From Acidobacteriota bacterium (GTDB taxonomy: Bacteria > Acidobacteriota > Vicinamibacteria > Marinacidobacterales > Marinacidobacteraceae): a DNA stretch of 64,000 nt. The notes beneath the pieces were generated by a model, which did not search any database, was not told where the DNA came from, and saw only the letters and a list, made by a program, of their open reading frames with translations. The DNA lies in assembly GCA_009840635.1 (NCBI GenBank), contig VXNL01000082.1:1-64000 (forward strand), read 5' to 3'. The number at the start of each line of letters is the position of its first letter. Within the stretch, counting starts at the first letter, position 1. The position numbers and the translations under genes are program-made. Positions 10,464 to 27,671 of this stretch are shown one piece after another.

Positions 10464-11276
10464 ATGTGGGTGACCCGGCCGCTCGCGCGGGACTTCGATC
10501 CGGCGCGGATCAAGGACCCCGAACGTTCGGGCGGGGTGGACTGGGCGCTCTTCAACGCCAACTTCGAACGGTTCCTGAACACCCCCTGGTGGCAGGTCAA
10601 CCAGGGACATCGCGGGCCGGCGTGGTTGCGTGTTCTCCGTCTCGGCATGGCATGCGCGCAGCGGCGGCGGGACGCGGTCCACGACTTCGCGGGCAAGGCG
10701 GCGGCGCTCGCCCGCCTGCGCGTTCCGCCCGACCCCAGCATCGTGTTTTTCGGCGCCGAGGCGGGCTGGGAGGCGGCGATCCTGCAGGCGCTCTTCGGAG
10801 CGGGCGGCGAAGTGGTCCTGATTGACGAGGACCCCGCGGCCTACGACCGCTTCCTCCGGGCGCCCGCGAGCGTTCGCGTTCGGGCGCCGCGGGGGGCGGG
10901 CCGGCCCGAACTGCTCGTGACGCGCGATCTTGACCGTTGGCGCTACCTACGGCAGAACTTCTTCGACGTGCCGCCCGAGGGCCGTTTCGACGTCGGCATC
11001 GACTGGGGCCTCATCGAGCACTTCCCCGATCCGGGCAAGCGGAAGCTCATCACCCACTTCCGGAAGTTCCTCAAGCGGGGCGGACTCCAGATCTCCAGCA
11101 GCCCCCGGGACCGCCTGGCCGTCCGCCTCTTCTACCGCGCCTTCGCCGACGAGTTGAACACCGGCTACCGCGAGCTCATGACCCTCCGGGAGTTGGCAGA
11201 ACGCATCGAAGGGGCAGGGGGCGTGATCGAGCACCGCCGCACCCTCCCCGCCCACAACATCGTCGCGTATCGGTGA
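10464..11276 (+). CDS. class I SAM methyltransferase-like protein
   Basis: A 270-residue cytoplasmic protein. The Rossmann part begins with PSIVFFGAEAGWEAAILQAL, a degenerate motif I without the GxGxG run, followed by VVLIDEDP as the acidic strand end. The post-motif block VGIDWGLIEHFPDPGKRK followed by FLKRGGLQISSSP is typical of class I methyltransferases (catalytic-domain strands 4 and 5). The substrate is unknown. Its ATG is only 22 bp from the divergent serine hydrolase start, so the two genes share a very short regulatory region. REP-like hairpins follow directly after the stop and may terminate the transcript. Confidence 0.75.
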   Translation: MWVTRPLARDFDPARIKDPERSGGVDWALFNANFERFLNTPWWQVNQGHRGPAWLRVLRLGMACAQRRRDAVHDFAGKAAALARLRVPPDPSIVFFGAEAGWEAAILQALFGAGGEVVLIDEDPAAYDRFLRAPASVRVRAPRGAGRPELLVTRDLDRWRYLRQNFFDVPPEGRFDVGIDWGLIEHFPDPGKRKLITHFRKFLKRGGLQISSSPRDRLAVRLFYRAFADELNTGYRELMTLRELAERIEGAGGVIEHRRTLPAHNIVAYR

Positions 11277-11282
11277 CGCGCC

Positions 11283-11453
11283 GGCTTGGAACGCCGGCTT
11301 TAGCCGGCACCGCGCGGCGCTGATCGAGTGGAAGACCCGTACGGCCGGGACCGCCGGTCTTCAGACCGGCAGCGGCCCGCAGGGCCGCAGAGCGCGCCAC
11401 ACTGATCCGTGTGGATGACGCGACGGCTTGGAACGCCGGTCTCCAGACCGGCA
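11283..11453. repeat. three tandem REP-like palindromes
   Basis: GGCTTGGAACGCCGG plus CTTTAGCCGGCA at 11283-11309, a second copy at 11341-11388 (CCGGTCTTCAGACCGG followed by the hairpin GCGGCCCGCAGGGCCGC) and a third at 11425-11453 (GGCTTGGAACGCCGG then TCTCCAGACCGGCA). Each has a short palindrome of the form CCGGYnnnnRCCGG with compensating changes in the stem, so pairing is conserved while the sequence varies. They begin 7 bp after the stop of the methyltransferase-like gene. Confidence 0.85.
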
Positions 11454-11518
11454 CGCGCCGCGCTCCGCGCCGCGCACGGCGTAACTCCATGCATCCTCAC
11501 GGAGCACCAACCGAAAAC

Positions 11519-11900
11519 GCCGACCCCGATATCGCCCCAGGCTCGAACCGTCCGACTCCGATATCGCCCCAGGCTTGAGCCCGCCGACTCTCATATCGCC
11601 CCAAGCTCGGGCCCGCGGGCTCCCGTATCGCCCCAGGCTTGAGCCCGCCGGCTCTCGTATCGCCCCGAGCTCGAGCCCGCCGACTCTCATATTGCCCCAG
11701 GCTTGAGCCCGCCGACTCGCATATCGCCCCAAGCTCGGGCCCGCCGGCTCTCGTATCGCCCCAAGCTCGAGCCCGCCGATCTCGATATCGCCCCAGGCTC
11801 GGACTCACCGACCCCGATATCGCCCCAGGCTCGAACCCGCCGACTCTCATATCGCCCCAAGCTCAGGCTCGCCCACTCTTGTATCGCCCCAGGCTCCGAA
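11519..11900. repeat. minisatellite of twelve 32-bp units
   Basis: The core ATATCGCCCC (or GTATCGCCCC) recurs at 11529, 11561, 11593, 11625, 11657, 11689, 11721, 11753, 11785, 11817, 11849 and 11881: twelve copies exactly 32 bp apart without one insertion or deletion. Unit sequence is roughly CCGACTCTCATATCGCCCCA followed by AGCTCGGGCCCG. Units differ by scattered substitutions. Since 32 is not a multiple of 3, the frame shifts with every unit, so the array is not a protein repeat. There are no unique spacers, so it is not CRISPR. It is joined directly to a second array. Confidence 0.9.
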
Positions 11901-11917
11901 AAAGGACCGAGAGGGGT

Positions 11918-12299
11918 CCGGTCGATAACGGGCGTCTCGGATTCCGAACTCCGGTCGATATCGGTGAGGTCCGGTCGATATCGGGCGTCGCGGATTCCGA
12001 ACTCCGGTCGATATCGGTGAGGTCCGGTCGATATCGGGCGCCGCGGATTCCGAGCTCCGGTCGATATCGGTGAGGTCCGGTCGATAACGGGCGTCTCGGA
12101 TTCCGAGCTCCGGTCGATATCGGTGAGGTCCGGTCGATATCGAGGGTCGCGGATGCCGAGGTCCGGTCGATATCGGTGGGGTCCGGTCGATAACTGCGGA
12201 GGTCCGGTCGATATCGAGGGTCTCGGGTCCGAGGTCCGGTCGATTACGGTCGGCTCCGGTCGATAGCGCAGGTCGGCGGCGGCAGCTCCGGTCGATAAC
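11918..12299. repeat. phased array of fifteen CCGGTCGATA(T/A)CG sites ending at a start codon
   Basis: The core CCGGTCGATA, or a one-base variant, starts at 11918, 11951, 11971, 12004, 12024, 12057, 12077, 12110, 12130, 12163, 12183, 12204, 12236, 12256 and 12288. Spacing alternates 33 and 20 bp (53-bp period, five helical turns), loosening to 21/32/20/32 near the gene. Many sites are extended to CGATATCG, a palindrome. The last copy ends on the base before the ATG of the ankyrin gene at 12300, so the array occupies its whole upstream region and no Shine-Dalgarno sequence is visible. This looks like a multi-site protein-binding region; the binding protein is unknown. Confidence 0.88.
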
Positions 12300-13091
12300 A
12301 TGCGAGTTGTGACTCCTCGTGGTGCGGCCCTTGGCGGTGTGCTGGCGTTCGTGGCGGTCTTGGCGACGATCGCCGTGATCCGGCAGTCAGCGACGTCACC
12401 ATCGCCCACCCCTCCGGCAGACGAGGCGCTCGCCCCGGAGCCACCGCCCGACAGCGCGAGTGAAACGGACGCCGCCGCGACGGAGACTGGGTCGGGATCC
12501 TCACAGGTCCCCGATGGGTTTCCGGTCGTTCAGATGCTGCAGGACAGCAGCCCGGCGGGACTCCTGGTGGCAGCCGCCGGCGCGGGCGACGCCGAACGCG
12601 TTCGGGAACTGCTCGCTGCCGGAGTAGCGCCGGACTCCGAGAGTCAGGGGATCTTCGCCATTCACCGGGCCGCCGTCACCGGTTCGGTCGCGGCGCTCCA
12701 GGCTCTCGTGGCGGCCGGAGCGCACCTCGAAGCCCTCAACCAATACGGGCAGACAGCCCTGACCCAAGCTGCGTTCTACGGCAATGCGGAAGCCGTGGTG
12801 TTCCTGCTGAGCGCGGGCGCCAACCCGAACGCCCATGCCGAACCGAACCACCAGACTCCTCTGCGGGCGATCCTGAGCGGCTGGACGATGACTCTCTCGC
12901 ATCGGTCGCCGCTTCCCGCGAAGGACGAGGAACGCTTCGCGGCGGCCTGGGCGCTCATTCAGGCGGGGGCCGATCCACACTTCGGTCCCGGAGACCATCC
13001 TCCGCCAGCCATGATGGCGGAGGCCCTGGGCGGCGAAATCGGGCGGCTCTTCGCCGGTAGTCCGACCGATCCGGGACAGCGCCCGCGCTGA
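12300..13091 (+). CDS. membrane-anchored ankyrin-repeat protein, copy 1
   Basis: A 263-residue protein with an N-terminal membrane anchor (ALGGVLAFVAVLATIAVI), a Pro/Ala/Glu-rich linker of about 55 residues, and four or so ankyrin repeats from about residue 85: LLVAAAGAGDAERVRELLAA, then IFAIHRAAVTGSVAALQALV, then TALTQAAFYGNAEAVVFLLS, and a divergent last one. It is closely related to the ankyrin gene at 15563-16333; shared stretches include ANPNAHAEPN (DPNAHAEPN in the paralogue) and PAMMAE. The two genes face each other with a permease gene between. The ankyrin domain would lie in the periplasm or cytoplasm depending on anchor orientation. The start codon is at the very end of the phased repeat array, and no ribosome-binding site is visible. 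Confidence 0.85.
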   Translation: MRVVTPRGAALGGVLAFVAVLATIAVIRQSATSPSPTPPADEALAPEPPPDSASETDAAATETGSGSSQVPDGFPVVQMLQDSSPAGLLVAAAGAGDAERVRELLAAGVAPDSESQGIFAIHRAAVTGSVAALQALVAAGAHLEALNQYGQTALTQAAFYGNAEAVVFLLSAGANPNAHAEPNHQTPLRAILSGWTMTLSHRSPLPAKDEERFAAAWALIQAGADPHFGPGDHPPPAMMAEALGGEIGRLFAGSPTDPGQRPR

Positions 13092-15562: not shown

Positions 15563-16333
15563 TCACCGCGAGCGCGGCGGGGTGTCGGAGGCGCCGTCGA
15601 GGAGCAACGAACGGATTTCGCCGCCGATGCCCTCCGCCATCATCGCCGGCGAGATCATTCCGGGAGCGAGTTGGGGGTCCGCACCCGCAGCGAGCAGCGC
15701 GCGGGCCGCGGTCAGCCGTTCCTCTTCGCTGGCCTCGATGCCGAGCGGATTCGGCGACTGGCCGAGGGACCAGCCGAAGAGAAGGCCGAGGAGCGGAGTC
15801 TGGTTGTTCGGCTCCGCATGGGCGTTGGGGTCCGCGCCGGACTCCAGCAGGAAGGACACGGCGCCGGCCCGGCCGAAGAGAGCGGCCCGGGCGAGCGCCG
15901 TATGACCCGACCGGTCCAGCGCCTCCAGGTCGGCTCCTGCCGCAACGAGCAACTCCAGCACGGCCAGTGAATCCGCTTGCGCCGCCCGGTGGATGGCGGG
16001 AAACCCGCGGCTCTGCGCGTCAGGGGGCACGCCCTCGTCCAGAAGCGCACCCACTCTCATGACGTCACCGGCCATTGCCGCCGCCACGAGTTGGCCCACG
16101 GGGGAATCGTCCGCCGCCTCGTCGTTGCCGTCCGAATTGCCGCCCAACGGAACGCGCGTCACCGAGATCGACACCGGACCCGCTTTTGGTCTCGGTGCCG
16201 GCTCATCCGTCACGCTTACCTCGACGCCGACCGGCAGGATGCGTCCGAACCGGGTCACGGCGAACGCGACAACCACGATCAGCGCCGTCAGGACGGCCGC
16301 GAAAAGGGACCGCCGGCGCGTCATGAACGACAT
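15563..16333 (-). CDS. membrane-anchored ankyrin-repeat protein, copy 2
   Basis: A 256-residue paralogue of the protein at 12300-13091. The N-terminal anchor is SLFAAVLTALIVVVAFAVTRF. An acidic linker leads to ankyrin repeats from about residue 80: QLVAAAMAGDVMRVGALLDE, then FPAIHRAAQADSLAVLELLV, then TALARAALFGRAGAVSFLLE. It lies 7 bp upstream of the ADOP permease gene on the same strand and is very likely co-transcribed with it, which suggests a working partnership (a scaffold or regulatory subunit for the permease). Copy 1 lies on the other side of the permease in opposite orientation, giving an inverted duplication around it. Functional pairing is inference. Confidence 0.85.
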   Translation of the reverse strand: MSFMTRRRSLFAAVLTALIVVVAFAVTRFGRILPVGVEVSVTDEPAPRPKAGPVSISVTRVPLGGNSDGNDEAADDSPVGQLVAAAMAGDVMRVGALLDEGVPPDAQSRGFPAIHRAAQADSLAVLELLVAAGADLEALDRSGHTALARAALFGRAGAVSFLLESGADPNAHAEPNNQTPLLGLLFGWSLGQSPNPLGIEASEEERLTAARALLAAGADPQLAPGMISPAMMAEGIGGEIRSLLLDGASDTPPRSR

Positions 16334-27450: not shown

Positions 27451-27505
27451 GGGCACTACCTCCGACGGCTTTCGAGCCCGCCGATTCTATTTGTGGTGGC
27501 ACAAC

Positions 27506-27671
27506 GGCTTGGAACGCCGGCTTCAGCCTGCACAGCGGCCCGCAGGGCCGCGGGCGGTTCTTCCCGACCCCGGGTGTATCGGTGTGCGCTGCCGAGCCAT
27601 CACGGCGAATGACCTCCGTCCCGCCGCCCGCCTTCGGCGGGCTGTGCCGGCTGAAGCCGGCGTTCCAAGCC
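27506..27671. repeat. inverted pair of REP-like palindromes
   Basis: Left copy 27506-27551: GGCTTGGAACGCCGG, TTCAGCCTGC, then GCGGCCCGCAGGGCCGC. Right copy 27627-27671 in opposite orientation: CCCGCCTTCGGCGGG, TGTGCCGGCTGAAGCCGG, CGTTCCAAGCC. The two outer ends GGCTTGGAACG and CGTTCCAAGCC are exact complements, giving a 166-bp element similar in layout to the pair at the left end of the window. The rest of 27457-27726 holds no gene. Confidence 0.88.

Follow-up and report, generated by a model that had tools for sequence, protein, structure and literature searches.

Helically phased repeat arrays and a family of winged-helix-like proteins encoded beside them in a genus of Acidobacteriota

Two arrays at the window locus

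The window, by which we mean the whole stretch of 64,000 nucleotides analysed, belongs to a genome (G000) of the Acidobacteriota; judged from isolate names, these bacteria are presumably sponge-associated (RHO probably stands for Rhopaloeides odorabile). Table 1 gives an overview of the locus, at which two arrays of direct repeats on opposite strands lie between a methyltransferase-like gene and a gene for an ankyrin-repeat protein. The latter gene has a paralog at 15563-16333 (55% identity over 186 aa), and the two flank an ADOP-type permease gene. Between genes, at 11287-11470, lies a dispersed repeat that contains a GC-rich hairpin (GGAACGCCGGTCTCCAGACCGGC and variants), with similar copies at 2483-2517 and 27505-27551; repeats of this type also adjoin several arrays at other loci.

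Table 1 Features of the window locus and cores of the array groups
Feature	Coordinates	Strand	Sequence and remarks
Methyltransferase-like gene	10464..11276	+	Pfam match below threshold; next to the array locus in each of G000, G005, G007 and G008
Group V array	11518..11896	-	12 sites C(C/T)TGGGGCGATA, exact 32-bp period, core CTGGGGCGATA
Junction of the two divergently oriented arrays	11897..11916	.	Near-identical junction in G005:C51
Group I array	11917..12299	+	15 sites TCCGGTCGATA(A/T)C, spacing 20-21 and 32-33 bp
Ankyrin-repeat protein gene	12300..13091	+	263 aa; abuts the array in the window genome only
Group I core			TCCGGTCGATA
Group II core			CACCGGCGTCKAT
Group III core			GCATGCGTCWATT
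Group IV core			CCCAGCGATA
Group V core			CTGGGGCGATA/CTGGGGTCGATA
Group VI core			CAGCTNYCCGCATTCG
Group VII core			AACTAGTNAC
Sister genus core			AGCTGGGGRAATA

A site search confirmed the fifteen recurring sites on one strand which a preliminary description had flagged; they start at 11918, 11951, 11971, 12004, 12024, 12057, 12077, 12110, 12130, 12163, 12183, 12204, 12236, 12256 and 12288. Eleven of them match CCGGTCGATAWCG exactly and the other four with one mismatch. The alternation of 33 and 20 bp (53-bp period) that had been described for the array is strict for the first 11 sites only (33 and 20 bp five times), while the last four intervals measure 21, 32, 20 and 32 bp. If up to two mismatches are allowed, the core has 28 matches in the window compared to 6.3 expected and a maximum of 15 in 100 dinucleotide shuffles, which excludes a chance origin of the flagged sites. 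CRISPR arrays consist of near-identical repeats separated by unrelated spacers of similar size, whereas a 13-bp core and related linkers of 7 or 20 bp are found here. The second array, absent from the preliminary description, was revealed by TRF directly upstream of the flagged one (32-bp unit, 11.8 copies), and its minus-strand unit GCCTGGGGCGATATNNGAGTCGGCGGGCTCGA and the flagged array's long unit are related.

The final core of the flagged array, CCGGTCGATAAC, ends at 12299, on the base before the ATG of the ankyrin gene, and no Shine-Dalgarno-like sequence precedes this ATG; both observations had been made before and hold. The array reaches up to the ATG and alone makes up the upstream sequence of the gene, and could therefore be read as its regulatory leader or promoter. 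DNA comparison showed the order of methyltransferase gene and array to be the same in four species (G000, G005, G007, G008), but the ankyrin orthologs of G007 (75% identical) and G008 (71%) are separated from the array by about 4 kb that contain other genes. Two contig ends of G005 that lie in arrays correspond to the window locus; here the ankyrin gene is missing and the array runs directly into the ADOP gene. When the window's ankyrin protein is aligned with the G007 ortholog, its N-terminal 47 residues stay unaligned. Since the ankyrin gene is distant or missing at the orthologous loci, the contact between array and start codon is accidental and, among the genomes compared, peculiar to the window genome. 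Synteny thus shows no link of the array to the ankyrin/ADOP gene as had been suspected, and arrays do not always precede such genes; what the array follows is the methyltransferase gene. For 32 arrays both neighbouring genes are present; these genes point the same way at 18 arrays, converge at 9 and diverge at 5, so that no orientation is preferred, and no sigma-70 promoter match was found. The earlier idea of an unusual promoter is therefore rejected as a general role, and it is highly improbable that the array serves the ankyrin gene as promoter or regulatory leader. A structured RNA leader, also suggested earlier, was discarded as well: the fold is no more stable than that of shuffled sequences (z = 0.18 and -0.94) and Rfam gave no match.

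Phasing, conservation and distribution of the arrays

The core also occurs in arrays at five further places of the window genome (C7, C33, C49 and twice in C54). A search of the same clade, as proposed in the preliminary description, detected arrays throughout the genus: the pattern of site pairs matched all eight genomes of the genus and neither of two other genera of the family (0/2), and one genome of another family of the same order contained a stray match pair spaced 39 and 36 bp without an array. The arrays of the eight genomes hold 3-68 sites and are intergenic, with one of 41 overlapping a predicted gene. A literature search found no paper on these arrays.

A total of 463 intervals was obtained from the fetched array loci of the eight genomes. 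Of these, 163 measure 19-22 bp and 284 measure 30-35 bp (together about 97%), none falls at 23-29 bp, and the few remaining ones are 18 bp or longer than 36 bp. At 10.5 bp per turn the two classes equal two and three helix turns. The arrays are thus direct repeats in helical phase, as are iterons with their helix-phased spacing. Unit pairs within arrays differ at about 0-6% of core positions (in a few cases 10-13%) and at 20-56% of linker positions; sites were chosen by core similarity, which biases this comparison toward core conservation, and since only about 11 of the 463 intervals look like skipped sites the bias is small.

These data bear on the possibility of a neutral minisatellite, which would arise by slippage, unequal crossing-over and gene conversion and whose spacing would reflect two founder unit lengths. 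Copy number and unit type do vary at the window locus (15 alternating sites in G000, 14 all-32-bp sites in G008, 5 in G007, split arrays in G005), and arrays are found in genomes lacking the matching gene (see below). Nevertheless, divergence is not spread evenly over the unit as it would be in a neutral minisatellite, and the interval between the two spacing classes is empty although 1-bp indels are common. Moreover, eight unrelated cores mostly keep a spacing of 31-33 bp, and the arrays adjoin genes of one protein family at every evaluable locus, as described below. The preliminary description had held that free variation of copy number and spacing between strains with no link to the gene would point to a neutral satellite; copy number and unit type indeed vary and the gene link is absent, but core and helical phase are kept. 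Because the 11-bp core is nearly invariant while linkers vary by 20-56%, a plain neutral satellite seems unlikely, and we consider the minisatellite explanation as a whole quite improbable.

Nine matching loci from a collection scan were inspected. The array family is carried by a MAG of the same genus (two contigs) and by a Gemmatimonadetes MAG (one contig); the remaining inspected loci are chance matches or unrelated repeats (among the matches listed). A contig binned as Gemmatimonadetes (L116, JAJDWE010000017.1) has a group I array at 1-300, by mis-binning or transfer. Several contigs start or stop in or near arrays (C33, C39, C73 and C101 of G000, C131 of G003, C74 of G005, C14 of G009), and the arrays therefore break these assemblies. 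Repeats of the GGCGACATCTAAAACTGGGCCACC type abut array ends in L014 (2400-3060), L279, L280, L252, L216 and L283. They look like ends of an IS21-type element, and an IstB-like gene adjoins the array in L014.

A winged-helix-like protein family and its cores

Comparison of the repeat-masked flanks of the arrays revealed DNA common to five array loci, which encodes a protein of about 370 aa. Proteins of this family (about 360 aa, between about 320 and 400) comprise a helical N-terminal part, a Pro-rich linker and a C-terminal winged-helix-like (WH) domain, the latter assigned from sub-threshold Pfam matches: the C-terminal 35-50 residues or so match Fic-like_C (PF21247) below the curated cut-off with E values of 1e-3 to 1e-5. 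A profile search identified homologs in all eight genomes of the genus and in one sister genus, and in 0 of 51 other genomes of the class; with a 16-sequence profile and 199 genomes across the phylum, the window genome was the only one to match (0/198 others). Neither Pfam (above cut-off) nor NCBIfam nor PHROGs has a match to the family, a Rep-family initiator match was likewise absent from these three databases, and no convincing relative was present among PDB sequences. The family thus appears from these searches to be uncatalogued and confined to the genus and its sister genus. A viral, phage or plasmid origin was rejected, as no homologs were found in plasmids, phages or viral contigs (the viral scan used group I only; the all-paralog alignment was too diverse). 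The three-site pattern matched 19 viral contigs, and the one inspected was unrelated.

At loci found via the protein and not via the repeats, a tandem repeat search shows arrays with a period of 20-33 bp next to the genes; their cores differ from that of the flagged array. All 17 evaluable family genes, i.e. those with enough flanking sequence (two genes cut by contig ends, two fragments and one relic were left out), have an array of this period within about 600 bp. At 14 of the 17 loci the array lies upstream of the gene, as do type II and III centromeres relative to the gene for their binding protein, and at three it is found downstream only; where the orientation was determined, the upstream array is antisense to the WH gene. 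The array of G005:C64 (core AACTAGTNAC, spacing 31-33 bp) is too diverged for the repeat finder and was first spotted by eye, and it was confirmed by 10 sites versus at most 3 in 500 shuffles. In the window genome a group V-type WH gene (G000:C97:4572-5603) matches the second array, not the flagged one.

Between the cis array and the WH gene lies AT-rich DNA over about 100-200 bp (47-59% GC), which may be a promoter and is absent at dispersed arrays such as the window's. A CGTAAGTTAC/CGTAAGTGAC-like motif, absent from the window, lies in the common AT-rich region about 80-175 bp before the WH gene start (L245, L246-L249, L252-L255, L261-L264). Proteases, antitoxin/PIN, RecQ and a metal transporter are conserved neighbours of the WH genes; an NTPase partition motor is not among them. 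Directly downstream of the group V/VII WH gene, with a RecQ helicase nearby, two related genes stand in tandem, one of which has a trypsin-like peptidase match (L255 6237-7989, L256 5324-7017, L245 2619-4523).

The eight cores (Table 1) differ by clade of the WH protein. Groups I, II, III, VI and VII each form one clade of the protein tree, and the core labels need 7 changes on this tree, the smallest possible number, which was reached in none of 200 shuffles. Group VII arises within group V in the same chromosomal neighbourhood, and the core therefore changed at one locus, CTGGGGCGATA being replaced by AACTAGTNAC at an unchanged spacing of 32 bp. Groups II and III likewise share a chromosomal locus, at which they are found in different species. 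Core distance is correlated with WH distance over all loci (Mantel r = 0.73, p = 0.0002), but not significantly when one sequence per deep group is used (n = 8, r = 0.28, p = 0.085), and it tracks WH distance hardly better than the distance of the N-terminal part. The Mantel signal is mostly within-group constancy and so does not by itself separate recognition from common descent.

The II/III core is found at the WH gene only, apart from two contigs of G009, with an exact pattern that misses the variant cores of G006 and G008. Arrays of groups I, IV and V also occur away from any WH gene. The three genomes that have a group IV gene (G003, G004, G009) carry group IV arrays, as does G000, and the other four carry none. 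Group I arrays exist without a group I gene in the assemblies of G000, G004, G006, G007 and G009; G007 retains a broken relic of the gene. Orphan group V arrays are found in G005, where the gene of the group V locus is now associated with core VII. Either the genes of orphan arrays are missing in assembly gaps, often within arrays, or arrays may outlive their gene.

A selfish, spreading element was considered as an explanation: a WH gene and its array would found a family, and arrays would copy to new sites and persist after gene loss. The dispersed arrays of three groups, set against the near restriction of II/III to its gene, are consistent with spreading, as are the orphan arrays, the gene relic and the group V array at the window locus, which is present in the window genome and G005 and absent from G008. 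However, no transposase or integrase is encoded with the WH gene, several loci are conserved between species, and target-site duplications are not demonstrated, so that we regard this explanation as rather doubtful.

Proposed role and comparison with known systems

We propose, with a probability of roughly 0.6, that the arrays are in-phase cognate binding sites, each for its own member of the WH family. The cooperative DNA-binding protein put forward in the preliminary description remains the best reading of the phased spacing, the invariant core and a WH family with clade-matched cores, from which we infer binding itself. Each WH protein would act on the array beside which it is encoded, usually downstream of an opposite-strand array with the AT-rich stretch between. 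Cores two or three turns apart would place the bound proteins on one face of the DNA and allow cooperative assembly, to which the Pro-rich linker and the helical N-terminal part perhaps contribute. The complex formed at the home locus probably regulates the WH gene via the AT-rich, putative promoter region, i.e. by autoregulation, while dispersed arrays, including the two of the window, may be secondary sites that recruit the same protein or left-over copies. The group I arrays in five genomes without a group I gene (contigs often end in arrays), the group V arrays that G005 retains, the non-significant test on deep groups and the sub-threshold WH assignment count against the cognate-site reading.

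More tentatively, the modules may serve diversifying self-recognition: a WH protein and its phased array would make up a nucleoprotein complex of their own (a condensate or a filament) by which chromosome regions are marked or organised, its specificity being repeatedly replaced at the same locus and orphan arrays being left behind. Centromere- or origin-like sites, at which the WH protein would pair, anchor or segregate chromosome regions or control replication via iteron-like arrays, were considered as well. Iteron-like repeats two to three turns apart, a WH gene and an AT-rich stretch (about 100-200 bp) do resemble iteron origins and tubC/TubR (PMC4857107, PMC5016525). This role is nonetheless unlikely in view of the lack of a partition motor among conserved neighbours and of a Rep family match, the several paralogs and arrays per chromosome, and the failure to find the system in plasmids, phages or viral contigs.

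If arrays are cognate sites, they and their proteins provide, as a natural series, at least eight pairs of protein and site whose specificity has changed on a single fixed helical spacing, and with such a series the rules by which winged helices recognise DNA and assemble cooperatively could be tested directly. The system may represent an unrecognised mode of chromosome marking in uncultured symbionts. Assembly breaks at arrays may explain why WH genes are often missing.

Several known systems share features with the arrays. Bacterial intergenic minisatellites are likewise intergenic and variable in copy number, but here the core is far more conserved than the linkers and the adjoining protein clades go with the core. 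Proteins with the Fic-like_C winged-helix domain (PF21247) differ from the WH family, which lacks a Fic domain and has a different N-terminal part and linker. Iteron origins (RepA/oriV of pPS10 and relatives) also combine direct repeats with a winged-helix binding protein encoded alongside, and for iterons and RepA cooperative binding and pairing of arrays are known (PMC4857107). In contrast, the arrays described here are chromosomal, hold 3-68 sites and occur together with many other arrays and paralogs, and the protein has a long Pro-rich linker and no Rep match. In tubC/TubR (type III) and parC/ParR (type II) direct-repeat arrays likewise lie upstream of the gene for the binding protein, and TubR, itself of the winged-helix type, assembles into a filament and represses the operon that encodes it (PMC5016525). 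TubR is small compared to the WH proteins of about 320-400 aa, and here no motor gene adjoins, several specificities exist per genome and many arrays are orphans. Because of the missing Rep match and motor gene we assign the arrays and WH proteins to neither the iteron/Rep nor the tubC/TubR systems; by analogy, the best reading is that they would work like them.
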